Shown here one piece after another: positions 12,408-56,229 of a DNA stretch of 64,000 bases. The translations under genes were made by a program, and so were the position numbers. This stretch comes from a virus. The notes below the pieces were generated by a model, which saw nothing but the letters and a program-made list of their open reading frames with translations, made no database searches and was not told where the DNA came from. The stretch's first letter is position 1, and each line of letters begins with the position of its first letter. The DNA is taken from IMG/VR virus record IMGVR_UViG_3300003323_000724, positions 1-64,000 of that record, one strand, 5' to 3'.

Positions 12408-13037
12408 ATGAGTGTACTCACCGGACTGGAGATACTTCGCGTTGCCGAACACACAAAAGATCCGTTTTGGGATTCGGCAACCCCGGGGTTAGTCGTCAGT
12501 CCACTGATTCCCGAACACGTCGGTCCCAACTCGATTGATGTAACGCTTTCCCCCCACCTGAAGATTTACGACAGGCACGGGAACACGGACGGAACTTGCC
12601 GCGTTTGTGAGTGGGGGAATCCGCCGTTTCTCGACATGAAAGCGGACCACGTAACACACAACCTGACTATTGCGGAAGACGGTTTGATCCTTGAACCGGG
12701 TGAGTTGTATTTAGGTTCGACTAACGAGAAGATTGGCTGTCTCAACTTATTACCCTGGATCGATGGACGTAGTAGCGTCGGTCGATTAGGGATGTACATT
12801 CACGTTACTGCCGGGCGATGTGACAGTGGATTCGGATGGCCCAACGGAGCGACAATCACACTCGAAATCGCCGTCGTGAAGCGGCTGAAAATCTACCCCA
12901 ACGTCCGCATAGGACAAGTGACGTTCTTTACGCTTCAGGGCGAGACTCAGGCATACTCGGGTAAATATAAGAATCAGTCCGGACCAACTCCGTCAATGCT
13001 CTGGAAGGACTTTTTGCCAAAGGAGGAAGGGAAATGA
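12408..13037 (+). CDS. dcd: dCTP deaminase
   Basis: 209 residues of the dCTP deaminase/dUTPase fold. Visible family motifs: GPNSIDVTLSPHLKIY near the start, PWIDGRSSVGRLGMYIHVTA (the R-S-S active-site loop and trimer contact), GRCDSGF, GATITLEI, and the C-terminal nucleotide-closing strand YKNQSGPTPS. The enzyme turns dCTP into dUTP (or dUMP if bifunctional), feeding thymidylate synthesis by the ThyX encoded at 35571. It contains a Cys-containing insert (CRVCEWGNPPF) near residues 64-75. Confidence 0.85.
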   Translation: MSVLTGLEILRVAEHTKDPFWDSATPGLVVSPLIPEHVGPNSIDVTLSPHLKIYDRHGNTDGTCRVCEWGNPPFLDMKADHVTHNLTIAEDGLILEPGELYLGSTNEKIGCLNLLPWIDGRSSVGRLGMYIHVTAGRCDSGFGWPNGATITLEIAVVKRLKIYPNVRIGQVTFFTLQGETQAYSGKYKNQSGPTPSMLWKDFLPKEEGK

Positions 13038-13965: not shown

Positions 13966-14877
13966 ATGACGGATCAGGAGGGACTACTTGCGGCCATTCT
14001 TCGCGATCCGGACGAGGATACCCCGCGACTGATGTACGCGGACGAGGTGCAGCATGCCGAGCCTGACCGTGCCGAGTTTATTCGGGTGCAGTGCGAGTTG
14101 CATCGCATTCGCCAAAGTACACTAAAGGCTCAACGTCGTGGTACAGAATGGCGCACCGCCTCTCGTGGCTACGCCGCATGTGCCCGCCACGAATCCGCTC
14201 TCCTCGCCGCTCACCCCGACTGGTTCCGGGTCGAGTGCCCGGCGTGCATCGACCATGATGGAATGAATCCATGCCCTGGCTGTGGCGGTAGAGGGCCGAT
14301 TTACCGCGACGGTCACGGAATCGAATCTTGCCGAGAGTGTGGCTCAATTGAGTCATCTATTTGCGATACGTGCTCCGGCATCGGCCACATCCCCGGCACC
14401 CCACGTCGCGGGTTCGCGTACTCGTGTGCGGCGACGATGGGGCAGTGCTTCGAGCAGTGGAATAACGGCGGCGACAATCACAGGTTCGTGAGCCGATTGC
14501 GATTCGTCTGGAGCGATCCAGATCAGCGCGGCACGAATCAAAGGTTGGATGCGTACCGCAACGATGGCTCAGTCGTTGCGCCTGGTGACTGGTTCCCCAC
14601 CGAATGGCTGTTGTGCTTGCTGCGAATTTACCCCACGCTGGAGGAGGTGCGGGTAAGCGATGCTGTTCCGTGGGATGCAGTGGGCGTGTCTGGATGGGCG
14701 ATGCACTCGGAAGAAGTTCACCAACCGCCGCATCGTATCCCAGAGATCCTGTACGACGCACTCACGGGCTGGAGTGATATTGATGACGGGTGGAAGTGGT
14801 ATTCCACTCATGACGCCGCCCACACCGCTCTTGCCCGCGCCGTCGTTGCTGTGGCCAAGAAGTACATACAGGAGTAG
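13966..14877 (+). CDS. TIGR02996 protein with Cys-rich zinc region
   Basis: 303 residues. The TIGR02996 domain (LLAAILRDPDEDTPRLMYAD, then RAEFIRVQCEL) occupies the first 45 residues. It is followed by Cys pairs CPACIDHDG, CPGCGGRG, CRECGS and CDTCSGIG, resembling DnaJ-type zinc fingers, and by a C-terminal domain with EWLLCLLRIYPTLEEVRVSD. The gene at 46604 shares this architecture. TIGR02996 is a Gemmata-lineage domain of unknown role, used here as a host marker. The neighbouring DnaJ gene lacks zinc fingers, so the two could cooperate; this is speculation. Confidence 0.75.
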   Translation: MTDQEGLLAAILRDPDEDTPRLMYADEVQHAEPDRAEFIRVQCELHRIRQSTLKAQRRGTEWRTASRGYAACARHESALLAAHPDWFRVECPACIDHDGMNPCPGCGGRGPIYRDGHGIESCRECGSIESSICDTCSGIGHIPGTPRRGFAYSCAATMGQCFEQWNNGGDNHRFVSRLRFVWSDPDQRGTNQRLDAYRNDGSVVAPGDWFPTEWLLCLLRIYPTLEEVRVSDAVPWDAVGVSGWAMHSEEVHQPPHRIPEILYDALTGWSDIDDGWKWYSTHDAAHTALARAVVAVAKKYIQE

Positions 14878-27932: not shown

Positions 27933-28157
27933 ATGCAAAATGACGAGATGCGGGAATTGCTGTCGAAGGGACCAACCAAAGACTCTCGATGGATTCACAA
28001 GAAGGGCGGAATTTATCGAGTAGTCACGACCGCCCTTAACGAATCAACTCTTGATGTGGTTGTGGTTTACACCAACGAACAGTATGGGGTCACTTGGATT
28101 AGACCACTTGCGGAATTTATGGATGGGCGATTCATACGACTGGACGGAGGGGTTTAA
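27933..28157 (+). CDS. DUF1653-like protein
   Basis: 74 residues from ATG 27933 with GGAGAC upstream. RWIHKKGGIYRVVTTALNES, VVVVYTNEQYGVTWIRPLAE match the DUF1653 layout (a small SH3-like barrel: H-K-G-x-Y ... V-V-Y ... W-x-R-P). Common in phages and bacteria, function unknown. Confidence 0.7.
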   Translation: MQNDEMRELLSKGPTKDSRWIHKKGGIYRVVTTALNESTLDVVVVYTNEQYGVTWIRPLAEFMDGRFIRLDGGV

Positions 28158-28346
28158 CTACTCGTCCCACCCTGCTTCACGGACCCGGCGGCGTTCTTCT
28201 TCGGTGAACGGTGGGAACCTGCGGGGCTGATCTTGGGTAAAGGAGTTCCCATTTGGGAACTCCCGGTCTACGAAAAACAAGCGGGCCTGTGCGATGCACT
28301 GCTCCATTCGGGACACCAGAACTTCGAGATCCTCATAACTGTTCAC
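28158..28346 (-). CDS. Small hypothetical protein on the opposite strand
   Basis: GTG 28346 is chosen (GAGGG upstream); an in-frame ATG at 28448 would add 34 residues of uncertain quality. Product: VNSYEDLEVLVSRMEQC, then PPFTEEERRRVREAGWDE. It separates the replication block from the CRISPR block and is the only leftward gene nearby. Confidence 0.5.
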   Translation of the reverse strand: MNSYEDLEVLVSRMEQCIAQARLFFVDREFPNGNSFTQDQPRRFPPFTEEERRRVREAGWDE

Positions 28347-28506
28347 TTTGTCGCCCTCGTACTGGTTTTGGGCGGCACATGAGCCGCAAGTATCGTTCCC
28401 AAAGTGTGTAAGGAAAAACCGAAACAAAATAACGGATTGTCTCAGCACGGCTAAGGTTCATGTGGTAAGTAACTGTACCCGAAGAAAAGATTGAAGGTAG
28501 GAAGAA

Positions 28507-29757
28507 ATGAAGAAGGCAAAAGAGAAAGGATCTACGGTTGTTAGAGCTGTGACTTTGCCCGTATCGGTTCCACTGGGAACAGATCCCAGCGGTAAGTCCT
28601 GGACTTGGGAATCGTTCAACGCAGCGATGACGAATGCGTTCCGGCTGTCGACGGATCTGGCCAACTGGTGCGTTCGTCGGTTGTTCATGATTGATGATTC
28701 GGGCAGCACCAAGACACCGGAAGCGATCAAGAAGTGGTACGGGTACAAGGACGCAAACGAGAATTTTCCCCGGATCGCGGGTTGGGCCGGGGCGATGGCG
28801 AGCATGAACATCGTGACTCGAAACGTCCAGCGGAAGTACATTCAGGATCGGTTTTCGGTAATTATCAAGCACGATTCGAGTTTGCTTACGTACCGGTTCC
28901 CGCAGCCGTTTCCGGTTCACAACGCGAGTTGGAAAACGGGCTACGCAGACGGGGATTTCCCAACAGTTAGGATGGCGATTCCGGGAGTGGGTCAGGTGGA
29001 ACTGAGACTGAAACGAAGGGCCGATTTTGGGCGACAGTTGGCAATGTTTCGCCAACTCCACGACGGGACAGCCAAGAAGGGTGAAGCGGCACTCTACCGT
29101 GACAAAAAGGGTGTTCTCTTGCTGAAGATGGTGGGGCACTTTCCGAAGAAGGAGCGGACGGAAGCGGCTAACGTGTGTTTCCTGCACACGGACCCGAACG
29201 CGATGCTAGTGGCTGAGATCAACGGCCGGTCAGTAACCGTGACTAACGGGGACCACCTAAAGCGAGCACACAAGGTTATCCGGGAGATGAACGACAGGCA
29301 CCGGGTGTTCTTGCAACGGATCGGGGAGGACAAGAAACGGGAAGTTCGGATGGATCGGGACCAGCGACAGAACGTGAACAAGAAGGTCGAAGATCGGTGT
29401 AACAAGCAGAGGAACCGAATCGACACGGCCGTGAAACAGATTGCGGCTCAGGTGGCTCGGTTCTTGGAACGACAGAAGGTTGGTCTTGTTGCCTACGATG
29501 ATTCGATCAAGACTTTCCTTCCTGACGGGTTCACTTGGCACGCTTTGAAAACACGGATCACCCAATTGTTTGTTGGTGAGATGGGTGGGGAGTGGATTGA
29601 CGGTAAATTCACACACTTGAAGGACGAAACGGAGAAACAGGAATGGCTGATAAGAGCACGGGCGGTGTACACAACGATTCCGAAAGTCGTGGCACACAAG
29701 TCCCGACCCCGGAAGAAGTCGCATCCGGCGGTGTCGATACCGCCAAAGACCATGTGA
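28507..29757 (+). CDS. Compact Cas12/TnpB-like effector, predicted nuclease-dead
   Basis: 416 residues, RBS AGGAAG before ATG 28507. Residues 30-210 fit the N-terminal helical and wedge domains (LSTDLANWCVRRLF; PQPFPVHNASW; VELRLKRRADFGRQLAMFRQ). A RuvC-like fold begins at about 222 with VCFLHTDPNAMLVAEI (candidate RuvC-I Asp229), followed by the basic bridge-like helical pair (LKRAHKVIREMNDRH; KKVEDRCNKQRNRID) and RuvC-II VGLVAYDDSIKTFLP, where the usual Glu is Asp331. After FTWHALKTRIT the protein ends within about 70 residues: there is no CxxC zinc finger and no RuvC-III Asp. A frame that could restore these is absent. Hence binding without cutting is predicted. A CRISPR array follows 355 bases downstream on the same strand; no cas1, cas2 or transposon ends are seen. 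Alternatives: an exapted TnpB. Type V assignment is inferred from fold order and the adjacent array. Confidence 0.75.
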   Translation: MKKAKEKGSTVVRAVTLPVSVPLGTDPSGKSWTWESFNAAMTNAFRLSTDLANWCVRRLFMIDDSGSTKTPEAIKKWYGYKDANENFPRIAGWAGAMASMNIVTRNVQRKYIQDRFSVIIKHDSSLLTYRFPQPFPVHNASWKTGYADGDFPTVRMAIPGVGQVELRLKRRADFGRQLAMFRQLHDGTAKKGEAALYRDKKGVLLLKMVGHFPKKERTEAANVCFLHTDPNAMLVAEINGRSVTVTNGDHLKRAHKVIREMNDRHRVFLQRIGEDKKREVRMDRDQRQNVNKKVEDRCNKQRNRIDTAVKQIAAQVARFLERQKVGLVAYDDSIKTFLPDGFTWHALKTRITQLFVGEMGGEWIDGKFTHLKDETEKQEWLIRARAVYTTIPKVVAHKSRPRKKSHPAVSIPPKTM

Positions 29758-29882
29758 AAATGGCTTCGGCCTTGATGAACGGTCTGTTTAATGGCGGGTT
29801 GAAATCTCGAACGTCTCGCGATGCCGTTCGGATCGGGCACTACGGTTTGCGGGCGATCCAAACGGACACTACCAGCGAGTGA
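29643..29882 (+). CDS. Small protein overlapping the effector 3' end
   Basis: 79 residues in another frame, overlapping the effector gene by 115 bases. A purine-rich RBS (GGAGAAACAGG) precedes ATG 29643. Polar N-terminus (ADKSTGGVHNDSESRGTQ) and a helical C-terminal half (KMASALMNGLFNGG, RDAVRIGHYGLRAIQ) that extends beyond the effector stop. It might be a co-translated partner of the effector or unrelated; no family recognised. Confidence 0.5.
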   Translation: MADKSTGGVHNDSESRGTQVPTPEEVASGGVDTAKDHVKMASALMNGLFNGGLKSRTSRDAVRIGHYGLRAIQTDTTSE

Positions 29883-29953
29883 TTAGGTGATAAACTGATG
29901 GTTTGTTTGAAAATCGATGTAAGTTGCGGGTTGTGTTTAGTTTGTGCTGATCT

Positions 29954-29981
29954 TTGACAAATCAACCGCTCGCAACAACAT
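29954..29981 (+). promoter_or_regulatory. Possible promoter of the CRISPR transcript
   Basis: TTGACA followed after 16-18 bases by CAACATAA. The -35 is perfect, the -10 is weak. Transcription would start near 29988 and read through the structured leader and the array. Confidence 0.45.
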
Positions 29982-30004
29982 AACTTAGTGATTACATTGT
30001 CTTT

Positions 30005-30062
30005 GCGCTCCTGCCGAGCGCGGACGCAACGGGCACCTGTCTCACGCAGTCAGGTCCGCTCG
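30005..30062 (+). ncRNA. Structured leader, possible tracr-like RNA
   Basis: Several overlapping inverted repeats: GCGCTC with GAGCGC (30005-30021); ACCTG with CAGGT (30035-30055); GCGGAC with GTCCGC (30020-30059); CGAG with CTCG (30015-30062). Two mutually exclusive folds are possible. In type V systems with a tracrRNA, that RNA is usually encoded here, between effector and array. No strong anti-repeat is present within it, so a structured leader is an equal possibility. Confidence 0.4.
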
Positions 30063-30111
30063 CGTAACGTGGGATAAAACTGGTCCGGGAGATGACTTAA
30101 GTGTCCCCGCC

Positions 30112-30367
30112 CCGGAACTACTACACCGATCGTTGGAGTGGTGCAGGGTGGCCCGGGTCGAGTACGACGGAAGTACTGGGGCCCGGAACTACTACACCGA
30201 TCGTTGGAGTGGTGCAGGGGCCTGACGGCGTTCGGCCGCGACTTCGCCGGCCTCCCGGAACTACTACACCGATCGTTGGAGTGGTGCAGGTACATGCGCG
30301 CCTCCGGCGCGTTCACGTGCTTGTAGAGATTCCGGAACTACTACACCGATCGTTGGAGTGGTGCAGG
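30112..30367 (+). CRISPR. CRISPR array, four 36-base repeats, three spacers
   Basis: Identical 36-base repeats at 30112-30147, 30183-30218, 30255-30290 and 30332-30367. Each begins CCGGAACTACTACACC and ends GGAGTGGTGCAGG. CTACACC can pair with GGTGCAG (one A-C mismatch) to form a 7-bp stem. Spacers are 35, 36 and 41 bases and unrelated to each other. All four repeats are perfect, with no decayed terminal copy. The spacers are 59-78% GC, above the surrounding genes. The array sits between the effector and the gene starting at 30388. Confidence 0.93.
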
Positions 30368-30387
30368 GAGGTAGTTAAGGGGAAAAA

Positions 30388-30996
30388 ATGACATTGACCG
30401 AAAAAGAAGTCCGAGGAGTGTTTCGAGCGTTGTGGGTGAAGGAATCCGAAGAGTGGTCTGTGGACGAACTGACTCGACGTGTTAACCGAGTGGGTGAAGT
30501 TCATAGTTGGGTAAAACCAAAACAGAATTACTTGTTCCGGTCGGATGAGCTGGAAACTCTGTTGAAGTTGGTCAATTGCGACGGACGGGGAGAAATTGAA
30601 ATAACCCCGACACCAAGTCGGGATAAGCCAGAGTCTCGATTGAAGTGGAAGGAGCGGTTGAACGCGATCCGCCGGGGAACGGGTGCCAAGAACAAACCCC
30701 GTAAGGGGTCTGCTAAGGATTTGGCCCACCGGCTGCTTTTGAAGGCCACGGAGAAATCTCCGCTGACCATTGAAAAACTAGCGAAGATCATCCACGCCAA
30801 TTTCCAGAACCGAGAATACTATGCGGTTCTGAAGTCGATGAAGCGGGTTATGATCGAACTGAAGGTGGAGTATGGGGTTTACGTTTCCTCTCGACGGCTA
30901 GATAAGTCCGAAAGAAACGGGAAACGTAATTTGTTTGGATACTGGATCGAAGGGGACGGGAAAATCAAACCGAGTGAGGAGAAGACAGGTGAGTAA
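30388..30996 (+). CDS. Hypothetical protein with basic linker
   Basis: 202 residues. N-terminal domain (LTEKEVRGVFRALWVKESEE), basic middle (GTGAKNKPRKGSAKDLAHRL) and a C-terminal winged-helix-like region (IHANFQNREYYAVLKSMKRV, GVYVSSRRLDKSERNGKR). Likely DNA-binding. It begins 20 bases after the array, so it could share the array's transcript. Confidence 0.6.
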   Translation: MTLTEKEVRGVFRALWVKESEEWSVDELTRRVNRVGEVHSWVKPKQNYLFRSDELETLLKLVNCDGRGEIEITPTPSRDKPESRLKWKERLNAIRRGTGAKNKPRKGSAKDLAHRLLLKATEKSPLTIEKLAKIIHANFQNREYYAVLKSMKRVMIELKVEYGVYVSSRRLDKSERNGKRNLFGYWIEGDGKIKPSEEKTGE

Positions 30997-31477
30997 GTCC
31001 GAATTGACGCTGGAACAGCAAGCAACGAATTACCAGACAACGCGGCACATTCGATTGGTTCAGCGGCTTCTACATCTTTGCATCGGGGATTTGATGCGGA
31101 GGGCGGACGAGCACGATCAGTCGAAACTGGAAAGCCCCGAAGTGGAAATGTTTACTGAGTTCACAGCGAAGCTGGCAACAAGCACTTACGGATCGTCGGA
31201 ATACGAAGGGTTTCGCAAAGCGATGGGGCCAGCATTGGCACACCACTATGCCAACAATCCGCATCATCCCGAGCATCATAAGAATGGAGTAGCAGATATG
31301 AATCTGCTTGATATTCTCGAAATGTTATGTGATTGGAAGGCGAGCAGCACGCGGCATAATGATGGTAATATCAAAAAATCGATTGAAATTAATGCTAACA
31401 GATTCAATCTGTCCCCACAGTTGGTGCAGATTTTAGAGAACACTGCTCCACTGTTTGATGGACAGAAGGAGATTTGA
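30989..31477 (+). CDS. DUF5662 family protein
   Basis: 162 residues, GTG 30989. RADEHDQSKLESPEVEMFTE, YGSSEYEGFRKAMGPALAHH, YANNPHHPEHHKNGVADMNL and LEMLCDWKASSTRHNDG are the hallmark blocks of DUF5662, common in phages. The His/Asp-rich pattern (H-D..., H-H..., H-P-E-H, H-N-D) suggests an HD-like metal phosphohydrolase, but that activity is inferred. Confidence 0.8.
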   Translation: MSKSELTLEQQATNYQTTRHIRLVQRLLHLCIGDLMRRADEHDQSKLESPEVEMFTEFTAKLATSTYGSSEYEGFRKAMGPALAHHYANNPHHPEHHKNGVADMNLLDILEMLCDWKASSTRHNDGNIKKSIEINANRFNLSPQLVQILENTAPLFDGQKEI

Positions 31478-31770
31478 TTCACAAGTTTTCGTTCGAGTCC
31501 AAGTTCCATCCGGGGGATTTTGTGTATTTGAAGGTCGAGAAGGTGTTTAGCGACAATTACAACAAGAAGCTGAACAAGACGTTAAAAGTGGATATGGAGT
31601 ATTGTCCTCCCAAGGTATTTCAGGTTCTTGGTGTGTTTGGAATGTTTACGGAACGAGGACTAAAGGAAATAACATACCGACTCAATTCAGCGGGAATCGA
31701 AGGGTCAAAGACGGAATACCTACACGCCGAAGAAGAGGAATTGGAACTGTTTAAGGATGGCGAGATTTGA
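31474..31770 (+). CDS. Hypothetical protein, 98 aa
   Basis: TTG start in the previous stop. Starts MIHKFSFESKFHPGDFVYLK, which looks like an SH3/KOW-type beta-barrel. ELELFKDGEI at the end. No family recognised. Confidence 0.6.
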   Translation: MIHKFSFESKFHPGDFVYLKVEKVFSDNYNKKLNKTLKVDMEYCPPKVFQVLGVFGMFTERGLKEITYRLNSAGIEGSKTEYLHAEEEELELFKDGEI

Positions 31771-31777
31771 TGCGAAC

Positions 31778-31866
31778 GGCCGGGGCCAGATAGATTTATG
31801 GAGGTTTGGGCGGCTGCTGTAGTCGAAACGGGTCGAAGGAGAGGACGACCCTTCTGGTTACCGGCC
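31778..31866 (+). ncRNA. Structured RNA 1, three-way junction
   Basis: An outer stem GGCCGG with CCGGCC is extended by CCAGA with TCTGG. Inside are GTTT...AAAC around CGGC/GTCG with a 7-base loop, and GGGTCG/CGACCC around a 10-base loop. The total is about 89 bases, with a tRNA-like size but no T-loop. It directly precedes the tRNA-like element. It lies in a 303-base stretch without genes. Confidence 0.55.
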
Positions 31867-31876
31867 TAATTTACTT

Positions 31877-31966
31877 GCCGTGTTAGTTTAGTGGAAGAAC
31901 ATTCCCCGCAAGGGAAAGGCGGAATCTCGACTGACGAGTCGGGTAGGTTCGATACCTCCACACGGC
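31877..31966 (+). tRNA. tRNA-like element with odd anticodon arm
   Basis: Perfect 7-bp acceptor stem GCCGTGT/ACACGGC; D-arm GTTT...GAAC with AGTGGAA loop; T-arm with loop TTCGATA and a stem with one mismatch; long variable arm CGACT-GACG-AGTCG. The anticodon arm is the problem. Stem ATTCC/GGAAT leaves a 15-base loop, whereas the 7-base loop (CCGCAAG, anticodon GCA) has a 4-bp stem, C at position 33, and conflicts with a long variable arm. The 3' CCA is not encoded. It is either a degenerate class II tRNA or a tRNA mimic. Confidence 0.6.
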
Positions 31967-31970
31967 TTTA

Positions 31971-32049
31971 GACTGGACAGAATCACACTGGTGATTTTTG
32001 GGCGAAGCATTAAGTGTAACCTCCCATGATGGGATGGTTCTGTCCGGTC
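31971..32049 (+). ncRNA. Structured RNA 2, long closing stem
   Basis: GACTGGACAGAA pairs with TTCTGTCCGGTC over 12 bp (one G-T). Inside are the hairpins TCAC/GTGA and CCCA/TGGG. TCTTTTACATTTT follows, so the element could end transcription. It starts 5 bases after the tRNA-like element and ends 25 bases before the clamp gene, so it may alternatively be a regulatory leader for that gene. Confidence 0.6.
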
Positions 32050-33105: not shown

Positions 33106-33548
33106 TGGATGTAGTGGAACAGGAAGAAGCCGAATTCACCAGACAGATTCTCGAACGGCCGGACGACGTGACAACTCGATTAGTTTTTGCGGACTGGCTT
33201 GATGAACACGGAAGGAAGGTAGAGGCGAAATACCTGCGGGACATTCGGAAGCACAAATTCATTCGACTGGTGGGAATCTGCGGCGGATGGGCACTAAAGC
33301 CCCAGTGGGCGGTGGATCGGGGCAAAAGATTGGATTTGGATTACACGCCAAAGGAAGAATGCAACGGACACAGCGAACGTTGGAAATACTGGGACTGGCG
33401 GTTTAGGTGTGGGTGGAAGGTTCCGGCTCACGTAGTCCATTACGGGTACTCGATGGCGGTTACGTGGTTTGGGGTGTACGTGTGGGAATACTTGGACGAT
33501 TTGAGTAATCGAATGCCTTATTGGAACAGAGATGAAAGAGCTGTTTAG
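33102..33548 (+). CDS. TIGR02996 protein
   Basis: 148 residues, ATGA overlap with the clamp gene. TIGR02996 block: QILERPDDVTTRLVFADWLD, EHGRKVEAKYLRDI. The rest is Trp/Tyr-rich (WGWALKP-like WALKPQWAVDRGKRLDLDY, CGWKVPAHVVHYGYSM). Position within the replication operon is unusual for this domain. Confidence 0.7.
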   Translation: MMDVVEQEEAEFTRQILERPDDVTTRLVFADWLDEHGRKVEAKYLRDIRKHKFIRLVGICGGWALKPQWAVDRGKRLDLDYTPKEECNGHSERWKYWDWRFRCGWKVPAHVVHYGYSMAVTWFGVYVWEYLDDLSNRMPYWNRDERAV

Positions 33549-34752
33549 CGTTTCCGAAGCGAAGAAGGTTCGTAAGCCACTTCTGATGATCCCCAACTGT
33601 GGCCGGTGTGGTCTCCACGAACGGTGCCAATCCCCGAAGATTCCGTTCGGTGGCAAGGGCTTAAGGAAAATACTACTAGTTTCAGAATATCCGGGGAAGT
33701 ACGAAGACCAGCAGGGCAAGTTTCTCGTTGGGCCGATGGGTCGGTTCCTCGAAGATGAGTTGGCTCGGTTTAGTATCGACATGTGGCGGGACTGTTGGGT
33801 CACCAATGCGTTGATTTGTCACGACGTGGACAAGGTTTACGCAGGAGAAGGAAAGTGGAAGTCGGCCGTTGAGGACTGCCGCCCGAACTTGCTTCGGACA
33901 ATCGAAAGGACGAACCCGGAAGTTATCATCTTGCTCGGGACCGCAGCTGTCGAATCCCTAATAGGGCACCTGTGGAAAGAATCCCCCGGAGCCATTAGTC
34001 GGTGGACGGGATACAAAATACCGAACCATTCCCCCAACTGCTGGATTTGTCCCACGAACAACCCGGCTTACGTGATGCGGCAGATGGACCGCGATCCGGT
34101 CGTGCTGTCCGATTTTAGGAGCCATTTAAGAGCCGCAGTTAAGCTCCAGGGGCGACCGTGGTCCGAAGGCCCACCGGACTACCAGCGAGACGTGATAGTC
34201 GAACTGGACGCGAATAAAGCGGCACAATGGCTATCGACGATTCGGGACGGGAAGATTGCGTTTGACCTGGAAACCGATCGACTAAAGAGTCAGCACCCCG
34301 AAGCAGAAATTGTGTGTGCTTCAGTTTACCACCGGGACGAGTGTTGGGCGTTTCCGTGGCACGGACCGGTTATCGGAGAGATGCGGCGGATATTGGAAGA
34401 TCACCAAATACTTAAAATAGGATACAATCAAAAGTTTGAGCATCTGTGGATACATTCCAAATTAGGTATTGATATCAAGGGGTGGGGCCACGATGGGATG
34501 TTGGTGGCTCATGCGATTGACCCGAGACGTGGAGTAACCGGGTTGAAATTTCAGGCTTTCGTACAATATGGACAACCAGATTATGATGGTCACGTAAAAC
34601 CTTTTCTATCAGGTGAGGAAGAGGGCGGGAACTCGAAGAATCGGATCAGGGAAGTGGGAATGGCTGAAATTTGTCGGTACTGCGGTACTGACTCTATTCT
34701 TGAATGGAATGTGGCACACAGACAATCAGACATACTTGGATTAGACTTGTGA
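33532..34752 (+). CDS. Uracil-DNA glycosylase fused to a 3'-5' exonuclease
   Basis: 406 residues with two enzyme domains. Residues 1-210 match family 4 type UDG: CGRCGLHERCQSPK (Fe-S cysteines), ILLVSEYPGKYEDQQGKFLV, VGPMGRFLEDEL, VIILLGTAAV and PTNNPAYVMRQ. Residues 225-406 match the DEDD proofreading domain of DNA polymerase I: IAFDLETDRLKS (Exo I), IGYNQKFEHLWI (Exo II), and ICRYCGTDSILEW (Exo III). The polymerase module is a separate gene (36462). The fusion would join uracil removal to proofreading, fitting the dUTP flow from dCTP deaminase. Confidence 0.8.
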   Translation: MKELFSVSEAKKVRKPLLMIPNCGRCGLHERCQSPKIPFGGKGLRKILLVSEYPGKYEDQQGKFLVGPMGRFLEDELARFSIDMWRDCWVTNALICHDVDKVYAGEGKWKSAVEDCRPNLLRTIERTNPEVIILLGTAAVESLIGHLWKESPGAISRWTGYKIPNHSPNCWICPTNNPAYVMRQMDRDPVVLSDFRSHLRAAVKLQGRPWSEGPPDYQRDVIVELDANKAAQWLSTIRDGKIAFDLETDRLKSQHPEAEIVCASVYHRDECWAFPWHGPVIGEMRRILEDHQILKIGYNQKFEHLWIHSKLGIDIKGWGHDGMLVAHAIDPRRGVTGLKFQAFVQYGQPDYDGHVKPFLSGEEEGGNSKNRIREVGMAEICRYCGTDSILEWNVAHRQSDILGLDL

Positions 34753-51141: not shown

Positions 51142-51216
51142 TCCCTTCGCTTCCCCAATCATTTCATGCTAAACTGGCTCCATTGGGACACTCAACACCA
51201 ACTCGGAGCCAGTTCG

Positions 51217-54200
51217 ATGGCCGATCCGTACCGCCTACCCGTCTGGGACTACTCCGGGACGTTCGCTCAGGGTAAGTTTTTAGAACCCATCAAGCGACCG
51301 GACGGTAAGTGGTATTGGGCATCTGCCCTAACCCAGCCTAGACACCAGCTCGAAAACAAGGCCGAACTGACGGACTTCCTAGGCATTCATCCGGACAGCA
51401 CTGACTTCGGTTCGCACCACATCGATAGCCATTTAGGTCAACCACTCTCCTCACAGCACGTCTGGATGCACACGGGGGGTGCCGAAGGCGAACCCCCCGT
51501 GTTGGAGCAACCGGACTGGCGTCCAACGGATACAATTCCGGAAGACTTTTACGCTTACGAGGCTGCAAACGGCCCTAGCTTCGCACAGGAAGAACAAACT
51601 CAGCATCAGATAGGCAACTGGTCAGCGGGGCAACAAAACGCAATAGAGACGCAATACGGCGATTCTGGGCAGCACCCACTTGCGGATGAGGATGGTTGGT
51701 TGGTTCAGGACGAATCGAATCCCGTGGAGTTGACCAAGCTCGGACACGACGACCACTTGCGATATCTTCGTCCGTACCACAACGGTCACGATTGGGTTTG
51801 GCGAATTCATCGAATGGAACCGGAAGCAGCAGATTGGCTCGCACTCACTGAGTTGTTCGGAAAAGATCCCATGCATATGACTCCGGAAGAATTCAAGCAC
51901 ATTGGAACTCCGGACCATCAGCACCGACCCCTGACTCCGGACGAGAGGATTGTTGCCGGAATCGACCCAATGCCGGAAGTCGATTGGCGCCCCAATGAAA
52001 CCATTCCCGAAGACTTTTACGCGTTTTCCCGTGGGGAATCTCCCGTGAACTACAACTGTTACTCGTTCCACGACGTGATTGCCAAGCTCCAGCGGGCGGA
52101 CCAGCCGGTTACGTACAACGAAAACGCATTCCTCGAACAGATCCGTCAGAACCCCAATGATTTTACAAACAGGGCCGTCTTTGCGGATTGGCTAGAAGAT
52201 CAGGAACACCCGGACCGCAACCTGTTGGACGCCCTCCGATCGCACCAAGGGTTCGGAACTATCAGTCGAACCCCCCAAGGGTTTCACCTCGATACCCGTT
52301 CCCGCGCCCAACAGGTCGGCGAACGGGTCGGTCGGGCGATGGCCGAATCCGCTGCTCAGTTCGGAGATGACCTGCGAGACAGTCCGAACGGGTTTGAATT
52401 GGACTCACAGGACGCAGACCAATTACACGCGGCCGGCATAGAGTTCGGTTCTCCCGAGTGGAGGGAAGCAGAAAACCATGCCGAACGAGCGTTTTTGGAA
52501 CATTTTAACCCCCCGACACAAAACGACGGGGATGAAGGAATGGTTGATTACGGCTGGTCCGCTCCTCTCCGAACGCGGCCAAAAACGAATGCGTTGGCCC
52601 AGTTTCATGCGCCGGGGTACGAAGTGATTGAGGACCAGCCGCAGCAGATGCAATGGGAAGAGGGCTTACTGCCCCCAACGGCCGTTTCCAAGCACCCCAC
52701 GCAGGAATTTGCAGGCCAATCACTGCGGCCGAACGAACAGGGAACCGTGTGGGACAATCCGTTCCAGCCGTGGGGACAGGACTATGAGCCGGAAACGGGA
52801 CTGTTTCAGCTCCCTTATGCGGAACAATTGGACGACGGGATGTTCGATCAGGAAGGGTTTTTGTTGACTCCCAAAGGAGCGAGCCGTCGTGCGGTCCGGG
52901 GTATTCACTTCGATCCCGAAGTTGGGAATTATCGACTTCATGGGTACTGGATCAATCGGGACGATCAGGGCAATCCGCAGTGGTGGAGCAGAGGACCATC
53001 GATGTGGAAAGGACCGTCTCCCGAACACATTGAGGGCATGATCTACGAACCGGGGGACACTCGGGATCATATGCTTTTCGGTGAAAATCCGGATCGAACC
53101 CCTGTTTCTCCCGAGCACCTGTGGGCACTTGGATTAGGGGGCCAACCGCCGCAAGCCCCCGACGCACCCGATTGGAGAACTCCTGACACAGTTCCAGAGG
53201 ACTTTTATGCGTACGGGAGGGCTGATTACGGCTGGGGCCAAACTCTGAAGTCTGCGTTCGATCTCGGTAAGCAGTACTGGCCCCAGATCGCCGCAGCCGC
53301 ACCGCACGCTTGGAACGCAGCCAAGTCTTGGTGGAACGGAGAAGAAGGATCGTCCCAGCACGCCCAAAACGCTTGGGATTCTTGGAACTCGGCTACGCAG
53401 AACGATGATGATGGGGACATGGTAGGGTATGGCGACTTGTCATCCGAAAAAGCACGGGAAATTCTACATGACGGGACCGTTCACGGGCACCCGATCACGG
53501 ACAAACAGAGGCGATTCTTTGGGTGGAAATCGCACCAGACGGATTATGCTGACGAACTGAACCAGGACGAGAACAATGCGTTCATCCAAACCATCCACGC
53601 AAACCCGCTGGATGCAACGAATCACCTCGTTCATTCGGACTGGCTCCGGGACCGGGGGCACCATGATGAAGCGGAGTTCCGACAAGCGATGGGGGAATGG
53701 GTGAAGGGTTGGAACAGGATTCAAGATTTGCACAAACCCAGATTGGACCCGGATCGACCTTGGATGGTTCCGTTATCGTTTCTTCCTGGTGGAATAGTTG
53801 CCGATAACCTCCCTGGTGCAAGATTTACTGTAGCCCGTGATTACACGGAGCAGGCCAGACAACTGGACCCTCACACTGGAATGCGATTTAGAGACACGTA
53901 TCACTACCCCTCCTACCCCCACATGGAAGAAGCCTTCCGCCGGGCCTTCCATCAGGGTCGAGGGGAACAAACCCAAGCCTCGATGTACGCCGATCCGTAC
54001 CAGTACCCGAGTTTCACCGATATGAGGCTCCCGCCGGCCACTCCCGGGACGGGCGAAATGCTCGATCCCGTCCAACTCGGGTTCACCCAGTGGACCGCAC
54101 CGGGCGGACTCGCACGCATCGCCGGGCCACAGTTCATGCCTACCGATTGGCACTCTCCGTCAATCATGTGGAGCCAGCCGAACGGGGAGGACTACGACCA

Positions 54201-56229
54201 GTTCGGCCAAACTGCCGGCGATCGTGGGGAATACGCACGGGCGGACTACTTCCTTCCCGCTATTGCAGCCGCAGCGGAATCGTTAGCTCCGGCAATGGCT
54301 CGATCTGCCACAATCGGAGCTGCTTCGGACGCGGCCGGGGACCTGTTTGGCGGTGGTGATGACCAGCAAGACTACGCAGCCTACGGAATGGCCCAGTACG
54401 GCGATGAGGAAGACAACCAAGCGTTCCTGAACGCAATCCACGCCAACCCGCTCGACGCAACCAACCACCTCGTTCACGCAGATTGGTTGGACGAACGGGG
54501 GCAGCACGGGGAAGCGGCGTTTCGGCGGGCGATGGGGGAGTGGGCTGCGAGAACCAGTCCCCATCTTCTGGACGTTACTCCATCTCGTGTCGAAGGAACT
54601 CACGGAATTTCGACACGAGCAATTCCTTCGTGGGTCAACGGGAGGATAGGAGTATCCTCAACAAGCTCCGATCCAAATATCGGCTACTCCCCTAATTCCC
54701 TTTGGACTTATTTCCACGGGTTCGGTCCAATGGAAGAAGCCTTCCGCCGGGCCTTCCACGCGAACCAAAACACGGTCCAACCGGGCCAAATACCCGCCGA
54801 TCTGGGGGACGACAGCGACGTGAGGATGGGTGGGGGCGAACAACCGGTTGAGTTTGCCGCTTACAGCCAGATACACACCACTCACCCCGATGACGAGTCC
54901 GGCTGGGGCGAACCGGACTTTCGCCGGGAGGACGAGATTGCTAACTGGGTGAGTTCCCCGATCCCGCACCCGCACGACAACTTTCCGGGGACGCCGAGCG
55001 CTTACGCCGGCCACGTCAACCAACCCAACTGGGGCAACGTTGACGGAATCATGCGGGCGATTCCCGAGAACAAGTTCGTCGGTGGGAAGTACGGGTACAA
55101 GTCCGCTGCGAACTACGAGGGCGAAGAGGAAGCCTTTCAACAGGCCATTCACCAGAACCCGTTCGAGTTCGTTAACCACGGGGCATATGCGGACTGGCTC
55201 CGAGAGCAAGGAAGGCACGAGGACGCCGATTTCCGAACGAACATGGGGGAATGGATGCAATCCCGGGCAGCGGGGCATGATAATGGATTTCTTCCCGTGC
55301 CGACAGTCGTTCGGCACACGGAAGCCCCGCAGTGGGCCAAGGGGAAGATTCGCATCGAGAACATTTTCACGCCCCATGCCAAAGACGCTCCGTTCCGGTG
55401 GGACTCGCGACACGTCGGGTGGGACAGTTACCCGCAGATGGAAGAGGCTCTCCGACGTGCGCACGATTTCGTCGGTCCTCCGGTTCAGCAACACGAAGAA
55501 ACACCGAACTGGTTCCGAGATCGGGAGTACCTAAGTAATGATGCCCATCCGATGAACTACGAGCACGACTGGATGGGGCCGACGGACTATGCTCCACCGG
55601 AAAGTCTCTATGCTGCTTACGGCGATCCGGGCGACAACGGCACCACCGCATCGGCCGGGAACACGCAGGAGTGGAACTACCAGCCGAAGAATTATTGGGA
55701 AACAACCCGGTACGGCGATTTGACTTCGATGGAATATGGGGCATATTTGGGGTACGCGGACGATCAGTACGAAGACGAGCACCAGCCCGAATCGGAGATT
55801 CCAGTGGAAGAAACTACCCCGACCAGACCAGAGTTGTTAAACGGTGCTTTGGTTTCTGCTGCACTCAAGCCGTCTCGTAAGCGGGGGCCGAACGTGGGCC
55901 AATTTGATCGGGCTGCAATGGGAGCACTTGGAGACCACCTCCAAGAAATCGGGAATCCACTAGGAGTTGCCGTTTCCCATTTCGTCCGAACCGGACAGAA
56001 CATCCCGTTTTCGTCCCTGTCGGGAACTTCGGAACACGAAGTGTCAACGGCCGATGGTTCACACCAAGTGTTCGGTCGGCGTGGGATCAGTCGAGACGGG
56101 AAGCCGATTGTGTGGACTGTGATTAAGCAAAACAAACCACGCCAACACCCAGACGGACGAATTATTTGGGATAGTGACAAGTCCCACAGTTTTGCTGTTC
56201 CGGCTGAGTTGTTCGACCAACCACAATAA
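51217..56229 (+). CDS. Giant modular protein with four TIGR02996 repeats
   Basis: 1670 residues from ATG 51217. Repeated short blocks 'DWRPTDTIPEDFYAY' occur about three times (near 105, 255, 655). TIGR02996 copies are at about 300-345 (NPNDFTNRAVFADWL), 785-830 (NPLDATNHLVHSDWL), 1062-1108 (NPLDATNHLVHADWL) and 1300-1346 (NPFEFVNHGAYADWL). The last three form ~120-residue modules that each end in MEEAFRRAFH or MEEALRRA. The C-terminal part differs and holds FSSLSGTSEHEVSTADG. No membrane or signal segment. Its place between the terminase genes suggests a virion or portal-associated protein; the family is not recognised. Confidence 0.75.
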   Translation: MADPYRLPVWDYSGTFAQGKFLEPIKRPDGKWYWASALTQPRHQLENKAELTDFLGIHPDSTDFGSHHIDSHLGQPLSSQHVWMHTGGAEGEPPVLEQPDWRPTDTIPEDFYAYEAANGPSFAQEEQTQHQIGNWSAGQQNAIETQYGDSGQHPLADEDGWLVQDESNPVELTKLGHDDHLRYLRPYHNGHDWVWRIHRMEPEAADWLALTELFGKDPMHMTPEEFKHIGTPDHQHRPLTPDERIVAGIDPMPEVDWRPNETIPEDFYAFSRGESPVNYNCYSFHDVIAKLQRADQPVTYNENAFLEQIRQNPNDFTNRAVFADWLEDQEHPDRNLLDALRSHQGFGTISRTPQGFHLDTRSRAQQVGERVGRAMAESAAQFGDDLRDSPNGFELDSQDADQLHAAGIEFGSPEWREAENHAERAFLEHFNPPTQNDGDEGMVDYGWSAPLRTRPKTNALAQFHAPGYEVIEDQPQQMQWEEGLLPPTAVSKHPTQEFAGQSLRPNEQGTVWDNPFQPWGQDYEPETGLFQLPYAEQLDDGMFDQEGFLLTPKGASRRAVRGIHFDPEVGNYRLHGYWINRDDQGNPQWWSRGPSMWKGPSPEHIEGMIYEPGDTRDHMLFGENPDRTPVSPEHLWALGLGGQPPQAPDAPDWRTPDTVPEDFYAYGRADYGWGQTLKSAFDLGKQYWPQIAAAAPHAWNAAKSWWNGEEGSSQHAQNAWDSWNSATQNDDDGDMVGYGDLSSEKAREILHDGTVHGHPITDKQRRFFGWKSHQTDYADELNQDENNAFIQTIHANPLDATNHLVHSDWLRDRGHHDEAEFRQAMGEWVKGWNRIQDLHKPRLDPDRPWMVPLSFLPGGIVADNLPGARFTVARDYTEQARQLDPHTGMRFRDTYHYPSYPHMEEAFRRAFHQGRGEQTQASMYADPYQYPSFTDMRLPPATPGTGEMLDPVQLGFTQWTAPGGLARIAGPQFMPTDWHSPSIMWSQPNGEDYDQFGQTAGDRGEYARADYFLPAIAAAAESLAPAMARSATIGAASDAAGDLFGGGDDQQDYAAYGMAQYGDEEDNQAFLNAIHANPLDATNHLVHADWLDERGQHGEAAFRRAMGEWAARTSPHLLDVTPSRVEGTHGISTRAIPSWVNGRIGVSSTSSDPNIGYSPNSLWTYFHGFGPMEEAFRRAFHANQNTVQPGQIPADLGDDSDVRMGGGEQPVEFAAYSQIHTTHPDDESGWGEPDFRREDEIANWVSSPIPHPHDNFPGTPSAYAGHVNQPNWGNVDGIMRAIPENKFVGGKYGYKSAANYEGEEEAFQQAIHQNPFEFVNHGAYADWLREQGRHEDADFRTNMGEWMQSRAAGHDNGFLPVPTVVRHTEAPQWAKGKIRIENIFTPHAKDAPFRWDSRHVGWDSYPQMEEALRRAHDFVGPPVQQHEETPNWFRDREYLSNDAHPMNYEHDWMGPTDYAPPESLYAAYGDPGDNGTTASAGNTQEWNYQPKNYWETTRYGDLTSMEYGAYLGYADDQYEDEHQPESEIPVEETTPTRPELLNGALVSAALKPSRKRGPNVGQFDRAAMGALGDHLQEIGNPLGVAVSHFVRTGQNIPFSSLSGTSEHEVSTADGSHQVFGRRGISRDGKPIVWTVIKQNKPRQHPDGRIIWDSDKSHSFAVPAELFDQPQ

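Follow-up and report, generated by a model that had tools for sequence, protein, structure and literature searches.

The locus described here lies in the first part of the 103,939-bp IMG/VR virus record IMGVR_UViG_3300003323_000724, of which positions 1 to 64,000 form the 64-kb window. Located within the replication block of this phage are a gene for a 416-residue protein related to TnpB and Cas12f, referred to below as the effector, and an array of clustered regularly interspaced short palindromic repeats (CRISPR). The repeat, CCGGAACTACTACACCGATCGTTGGAGTGGTGCAGG, occurs in four perfectly identical copies that start at 30112, 30183, 30255 and 30332; it is partly palindromic, with 26 of 36 positions equal to its own reverse complement, and the copies enclose three spacers of 35, 36 and 41 nt. 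A first-pass annotation, made from the letters of the DNA, had placed the effector gene and an array of four identical 36-base repeats and three spacers on the same strand, and all of this was confirmed except the gap between them, which is 354 nt and not 355 when counted between stop codon and first repeat. With moderate confidence, we read the locus as a minimal, phage-encoded CRISPR interference device that resembles type V and is directed against host genes.

Table 1. Features of the effector and array locus (window coordinates).
Feature	Position	Strand	Basis
Effector gene, 416 residues, TnpB/Cas12f-like	28507..29757	+	Open reading frame, PADLOC, profile model, alignments
RuvC-I strand and turn, residues 223-241 (VCFLHTDPNAMLVAEINGR)	29173..29229	+	Alignments, model
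RuvC-II strand with Asp331, then Trp-containing helix, residues 325-361	29479..29589	+	Alignments, model
Asp373 with the final predicted helix (373-390), perhaps what is left of RuvC-III (low confidence)	29623..29676	+	Model, alignment
79-residue open reading frame in the -1 frame, sharing 115 nt with the 3' end of the effector gene, GGAG upstream	29643..29882	+	Open reading frame list
Stretch before the array without assigned gene, likely leader	29883..30111	+	Inferred
CRISPR array, four identical 36-nt repeats and three spacers	30112..30367	+	
Spacer 1, 35 nt; 33/35 to a large serine recombinase gene of G. massiliana IIL30 (G028 C5:810367-810401), mismatches at 25 and 30	30148..30182	+	
Spacer 2, 36 nt; no target found	30219..30254	+	
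Spacer 3, 41 nt; 40/41 to nrdB of three Gemmataceae genomes	30291..30331	+	
Fusion of uracil-DNA glycosylase superfamily and PolA-type 3'-5' exonuclease domains, close to ThyX	33532-34752	+	Domain search

Two of the three spacers match genes of one likely host species, Gemmata massiliana. The minus strand of spacer 3 encodes NLYKHVNAPEARM, and the pattern of this spacer, allowed at most one mismatch, was present in 7 of 95 Gemmataceae genomes, compared with none for the reversed control. Three of these genomes carry the target at 40/41 nt: G028, which is Gemmata sp. IIL30 by its contigs, and G436 (both with the mismatch at position 39) and G438 (position 26); the other four differ at 3 to 7 positions. 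The target in G028 is nrdB, the gene for the small chain of ribonucleotide reductase (Pfam Ribonuc_red_sm, 3e-77), which lies directly behind nrdA (Pfam, 4e-196) on a 452-kb contig. Spacer 1, searched with up to three mismatches in 19 genomes and 22 virus records (41 in all), had no match outside its own array except in G028, close to the 3' end of a gene that encodes Resolvase, Recombinase and zinc-ribbon domains. Its wobble pattern with three mismatches was found in 8 of the 95 genomes (control, 1 of 95), where only G028 (no mismatch other than wobble) and G436 (one such mismatch; 6 nt differing altogether) stood out. Under an independent-base model, the chance matches expected for the two spacers in those 95 genomes (588 Mb) were about 6e-8 and 3e-14. 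The four perfect 36-mers and the two spacers with matches in Gemmataceae genomes argue that the array did not arise by chance.

Type V CRISPR RNAs (crRNAs) carry the repeat 5' of the spacer. Numbered accordingly, guide positions 1-24 are perfect in both spacers 1 and 3, and all three mismatches to G028 lie past position 24, an arrangement expected for randomly placed mismatches in about 4% of cases (a post hoc calculation by hand). Spacer 2 gave no wobble-pattern match in IMG/VR, only the array itself in the 41 records, and no match with up to three mismatches in the 95 genomes; a wobble pattern in another frame reached two genomes out of seven, both at the limit of mismatches allowed, where the control matched as many or more. 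No close spacer target was present in the phage itself (best, 27/41). Strain IIL30 is named Gemmata massiliana in its genome paper (PMC4672568).

The spacer 3 wobble pattern also recovered the same peptide in nrdB-like genes of four IMG/VR contigs, which share one identical stretch with 5 synonymous mismatches to the spacer. One of these contigs (L147; 221,422 bp) carries a viral nrdB-like gene that is closely similar to Gemmata nrdB and has, in our own reading, an intein-like insertion. The guides might be aimed at rivals, phages or mobile elements with nrdB or a serine recombinase, in which case the locus would serve to exclude superinfecting elements and its chromosomal match in the host would be a by-product. 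The nrdB with its intein-like insertion on a 221-kb viral contig keeps this explanation alive, together with the three further contigs that carry the same stretch (36/41 to spacer 3), and serine recombinases are typical of mobile elements. We nevertheless consider it improbable, since nrdB of the three Gemmataceae genomes is closer to the spacer, at 40/41, and in G028 lies behind nrdA on a 452-kb contig.

The effector matched the PADLOC models for Cas12f (4e-7) and Cas12u3 (1.5e-6), the latter from the type V-U families that the first-pass annotation had named for a profile search. The Cas12f match placed effector residues 98-327 on profile positions 86-301 of 399 and left the final quarter of the profile unmatched. 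Neither the reversed effector nor three shuffled versions gave a Cas12 match in PADLOC; the reversed sequence gave one unrelated match, LeoBC (0.01). Relatives were drawn from 25 loci, 18 of which passed a motif filter; 15 were used for profile and alignment tests (L136, L161 and L126 being excluded) and 14 in an alignment designated A2. A hidden Markov model (HMM) built from the 15 TnpB/Cas12f-like sequences, with the query excluded, scored the effector at 10.0 bits over residues 40-330, which ranked first of the 369 six-frame open stretches of at least 100 residues in the phage (second, 4.0) and above all of 500 shuffles (467 with a score; the top shuffles reached 9.4 and then 5.3). These matches and the adjacent array bear out the earlier suggestion of a phage-borne Cas12/TnpB-like effector with its own array, and by sequence comparison the effector is a very divergent TnpB/Cas12f relative. 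Its reading frame is intact over 416 codons, with a G+C content by codon position of 0.55/0.41/0.67, compared with 0.61/0.40/0.69 for the neighboring clamp gene.

Close homologues of the effector were found neither in IMG/VR by peptide patterns nor in our genome collection, and none of 24 planctomycete-type phage records carried a homologue. The best tblastn matches were at E 1 in phages and 2 in plasmids, and phmmer against the PDB returned no Cas12 up to E 10. Weak matches up to E 1 were obtained in 7 of 12 planctomycete genomes (best, 0.011). The single match in 392 genomes of the phylum (E 9e-4) was read as a VWA-type open reading frame (ORF) beside a MoxR-like ATPase and was rejected as chance; matches of the effector to Pfam VWA_2 (0.076), a PHROGs baseplate hub (0.013) and an NCBIfam YlxQ-related family (0.086) were likewise judged chance. 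When a Cas12f model was run over 32 records, two virus records matched (G012, five ORFs; G015, one, 1e-3), and the silence of the others means little because a first look missed the window's own effector.

The repeat was similarly isolated. Its 24-nt core had no match in other viruses, and its 16-mer and 17-mer gave 10 and 2 single matches there, about the number estimated for chance and with no array beside them; blastn with the whole array reached E 0.8 in phages and E 3 in plasmids (best 20 of 115 records), also judged chance. The mini-array might instead serve a host CRISPR-Cas system with the same repeat, the neighboring ORF being unrelated or a decoy. Phages with host-like repeats and no effector have been described (PMC7162821), and for G. 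massiliana 5 CRISPRs are given as confirmed and 21 as questionable, along with at least three Cas proteins (PMC4672568). Set against this are the independent Cas12f likeness of the effector, its position adjacent to the array on the same strand, and a best repeat match elsewhere of 25/36 in 563,614 bases of loci, which contain little of any host genome, no repeat search having been made in host genomes themselves. We assign only a small share of our confidence to a host system that uses the array.

The catalytic site of the effector was assessed by alignment to the 15 relatives. The RuvC-I Asp of 14 of them aligned to His227 in five of six MAFFT settings, the fifteenth being unplaced or misplaced, and a query-free HMM alignment likewise set His227 under this Asp. 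The RuvC-I residue is therefore probably His227 and not Asp229, two residues further on, which had been proposed at first. Alignment in five of the six settings also set Asp331 under the RuvC-II Glu of the 13 relatives counted, in agreement with the first-pass description of the RuvC order and of an Asp at this position; the sixth setting (BLOSUM30) shifted both sites and put Asn239 and Tyr330 at the catalytic positions. E-INS-i aligned Asp373 with the RuvC-III Asp in each of the 15 relatives, and a gap lay there in L-INS-i, G-INS-i, auto and alignment A2. The effector does not carry a D-E-D triad and reads His227, Asp331 and, at best, Asp373; several accepted type V subtypes also lack D-E-D.

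Cysteines occur in the effector only at residues 55, 224 and 298, with none after 298, and a zinc finger (the TNB domain) is excluded by this count of three. The earlier claim that the protein has no zinc finger and no RuvC-III Asp therefore holds in its first part, and its second part has become uncertain, with Asp373 as a candidate (one of four MAFFT settings; a model helix from 374). By alignment and model, Asp373 together with the last helix may represent a surviving third RuvC part. A frameshift from the effector into RuvC-III by way of the 79-residue ORF was also considered and was rejected: this ORF has no cysteine and, by eye, no D-x-N-A-A motif. It also had no Pfam or PADLOC match.

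A structure model made with the 14 distant relatives of alignment A2 had a mean predicted local distance difference test (pLDDT) score of 55, with blocks at 78-83 (residues 221-270 and 281-330), 58 (271-280) and 71-73 (331-350). It runs through strands at 222-228, 234-238 and 241-244, long helices, a strand at 325-330 and a helix at 344-359 to a low-confidence helix at 374-390, which directly follows Asp373 even though A2 has a gap at the RuvC-III Asp. Foldseek placed Cas12f first (8e-7), dCas12f third and Cas12m2 fifteenth. VIA-align matched the model to AsCas12f (Z 11.2, root-mean-square deviation (rmsd) 3.1, 160 residues aligned), to dCas12f (Z 9.7, rmsd 3.4, 138 aligned; model 215-366 on chain 215-365) and to Cas12m2 (8hio; Z 7.8, rmsd 4.1, 162 aligned; first residues 215/305, last 386/592), with the program's warning that Z below 8 may reflect mere common arrangement; a ribosome hibernation factor entry scored 7.4. 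If the end segments of the Cas12m2 match are gapless, His227 would correspond to His317 and Asp373 to Asp579, an attractive but unproven pairing. The RuvC-type order and the nearest folds, Cas12f and dCas12f, thus agree with the TnpB/Cas12 fold that had been anticipated, in a model that is only fair and partly circular.

Cas12m2 has a His-Asp-Asp (HDD) site formed by His317, Asp485 and Asp579; it binds one Mg2+ and cannot cleave, and with a single crRNA it binds and silences DNA (PMC10442227). The set His227-Asp331-Asp373 would be equal to this HDD site, and by analogy the effector has presumably lost cleavage. An effector that still cuts or nicks would use Asp229, Asp331 and Asp373 as a divergent RuvC site, and damage to the chromosome of the host within nrdB and the recombinase gene would aid host take-over. 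In the model, the turn that follows strand 1 holds Asp229, Asp331 comes behind strand 4, and Asp373 precedes the last helix; a virulent phage could equally well profit from targeting of the host chromosome, and some Cas12m clades with DED, NED or DND sites may cut (PMC10442227). We regard cutting as unlikely in view of His227 at the first site (five of six settings and the HMM), the change from Glu to Asp at the second, the HDD site of Cas12m2, which does not cut (PMC10442227), and the missing zinc finger.

The possibility was also weighed that the array is a relic, with spacers taken at random from host DNA, a decayed effector and no present function. The altered RuvC site, the missing zinc finger, the mere four repeats and the lack of adaptation genes among the proteins scanned would all fit decay. 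For cas1 and cas2, no PADLOC match was obtained in nine proteins (the effector, seven other window proteins and one protein of another phage), and the rest of the 104-kb record was not scanned for them; phage CRISPR systems described in PMC7162821 mostly lack adaptation genes as well. Perfectly identical repeats, an intact ORF with neighbor-like G+C content by codon position, and G028 mismatches confined to the distal part of both guides speak against a relic, which we judge very unlikely.

These results are most readily accommodated by a phage device that silences host genes. Transcription of the array would run the same way as that of the effector gene and give crRNAs with the repeat 5' of the spacer; the effector, a shortened protein of the TnpB/Cas12f type, would bind a crRNA and the matching host DNA; by comparison with the HDD site of Cas12m2 it would not cut the bound DNA; and binding at the nrdB and serine recombinase genes of Gemmata would block their transcription during infection. 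The downstream gene starts 20 nt past the last repeat, so a leader of normal length would be possible solely on the effector side. The first-pass proposal of a minimal RNA-guided DNA binder for silencing gains from the altered RuvC site, the absence of a zinc finger, the array of its own and guides that match host genes, as silencing would require; the loss of cleavage and the silencing itself we still infer. More tentatively, and with rather less than an even chance, the phage may run multi-guide CRISPR interference on the host chromosome with a zinc-finger-less Cas12 whose RuvC site has become a His-Asp-(Asp) pocket that binds DNA, possibly a parallel to Cas12m2, and whose guides are set against ribonucleotide reductase and a resident recombinase.

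Several observations count against silencing of host genes by this locus. Cas12f requires a trans-activating CRISPR RNA (tracrRNA), and a tracrRNA anti-repeat was not found above chance in 28001-32000 with the array excluded (34 of 200 shuffles were equally good). A simple scan revealed no promoter-like site, spacer 2 is without a target, and no shared protospacer-adjacent motif is visible, the protospacer 5' flanks being ..CTGTTG and ..GACAAG. The structure is also a weak witness: the single-sequence model was meaningless (pLDDT 37), Foldseek global TM-scores to the top Cas12 rows were about 0.2-0.33, the C-terminal helix lies elsewhere in A2 than in the other alignment settings, and, because the alignment behind the model contained TnpB/Cas12f rows, the fold resemblance signifies compatibility and not independent proof. 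Asp229 and the possible third acid, Asp373, leave room for activity. Finally, early repression of the host reductase seems costly, since the phage has ThyX and a dCTP deaminase-like protein and no reductase of the host kind was found: tblastn with Gemmata NrdA and NrdB detected no homologue in the phage (NrdA best E 0.28; the sole NrdB match under E 2 was the spacer itself), a search that did not cover other reductase classes. Late or partial repression, or deoxynucleotides drawn from host DNA, are possible escapes from that cost.

Upstream of the locus lies a gene for a DnaB-type helicase (Pfam 2e-4, under the curated cut-off), and a beta-clamp-like protein is among the neighbors (Pfam 0.072 only). 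Downstream are the uracil-DNA glycosylase/exonuclease fusion and ThyX and, farther on, a PolA-type polymerase, whose tblastn matches are annotated as DNA polymerase; the dCTP deaminase-like protein is encoded at window position 12408. Several phage ORFs carry a repeat domain that we take to be TIGR02996, the planctomycete repeat-companion domain. Domains like it were noted in ORFs at 13966, 22856, 33000, 46538, 50122, 51166-56229 and 60659, one protein of 1687 residues having several copies. All 80 genome loci kept for the domain consensus (of at least 153 confirmed) carry planctomycete names, which points to a planctomycete host. The virus therefore likely infects planctomycete bacteria, with Gemmata as a candidate host. 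Weak PADLOC matches of neighbors were Cas7f (0.029; ORF 30388), CasR (0.062; ORF 24371) and ZorE2 HNH (1e-4; ORF 23568). Rfam gave no match up to E 1 across 29500-30600. A search based on the helicase found no sister phages.

Other TnpB-like proteins were met during the searches. The contig IMGVR_UViG_3300038443_002312, of planctomycete-type phage, encodes a TnpB/Cas12f-like protein (L161:1492-2787, minus strand; L166:7070-8464, minus strand, in a longer form; PADLOC Cas12f 9e-4) that stops just before the zinc finger (Pfam TNB 0.028 at the very end) and has Ala at the RuvC-II Glu position; BLASTP of the effector against it gave no match. In its flanks, 3.35 kb hold 23 copies of TCACCCG, all of them on one strand, and an element of about 90 bp is present in two copies. 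These dense short repeats may be a guide array of another kind. One viral record, the 176,391-bp IMG/VR contig G012, holds five TnpB-like ORFs (L160, L162-L165) with zinc-finger cysteines by eye.

Comparison with known systems sets the effector beside compact and inactivated relatives of Cas12. It shares His at RuvC-I and Asp at RuvC-II with Cas12m2 on the alignments; Cas12m2 differs in its 596 residues and its retained zinc-finger TNB domain, and a sequence match between the two was not found. The Cas12f relative dCas12f (PDB 9n9c/9n9m) ends, by length and aligned range, before the TNB and RuvC-III regions and aligns with model residues 214-366; its chain in 9n9c has 365 residues and ends where model residue 366 lies, and the effector is 50 residues longer. 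This dCas12f is a natural protein that works with a sigma factor, and no sigma factor was recognized among the neighbor proteins scanned here. CasMu-V is described as lacking the RuvC-III motif and as associated with Mu transposases (PMC10910872), whereas no Mu transposase was recognized beside the effector and no transposase domain was present in the proteins scanned, the remainder of the record being read as ORF lists only. The first-pass portrayal of a protein smaller than known Cas12m with the whole third RuvC part gone is thus softened: the third part may survive, and neither small size nor C-terminal loss would be unusual, given the 365-residue dCas12f and the RuvC-III loss described for CasMu-V. 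TldR proteins are TnpB-like, nuclease-dead and phage-encoded repressors with an inactivated RuvC site that repress host genes by RNA guidance (PMC13418256); the effector is, from its sequence, also a TnpB-like phage protein with mutated RuvC residues, and it differs in that TldR has a guide RNA encoded alongside, whereas a CRISPR array here would give three guides. Compact type V-like proteins of 300-534 residues lie beside CRISPR arrays in landfill phages, some with weak or undetected RuvC motifs (PMC12607003), and by description resemble the effector in being viral, compact and array-adjacent, with no host-gene targets reported in the text available.

The closest precedent is the phage 'dCas14' with a spacer against the host glycyl-tRNA synthetase (Al-Shayeb et al. 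2020, PMC7162821), likewise a compact effector that lacks a required catalytic residue and has a spacer against a host housekeeping gene. Compared by description, the present effector differs in having no zinc finger and a His-Asp site, and its locus in lying on a 104-kb planctomycete-type record with host matches for two of three spacers. Among the matches listed, the literature searches gave no planctomycete example and no host-gene spacers with compact effectors apart from PMC7162821. Phage CRISPR is mostly discussed as an anti-phage weapon; here host-gene silencing becomes a concrete, testable proposition, as a single array holds two guides with chromosomal matches in the same Gemmata species, the match of one falling in a nucleotide-synthesis gene, and the bacterium can be cultivated (DSM 26013). 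If the proposition is true, the effector shows how little of Cas12 suffices for RNA-guided DNA binding, and if further phages share this architecture, it would represent an undescribed type V subtype specialized for host take-over. Precedents thus exist for host silencing, and what is new here is the occurrence together, at one locus, of an altered zinc-finger-less effector and two host-matched guides.

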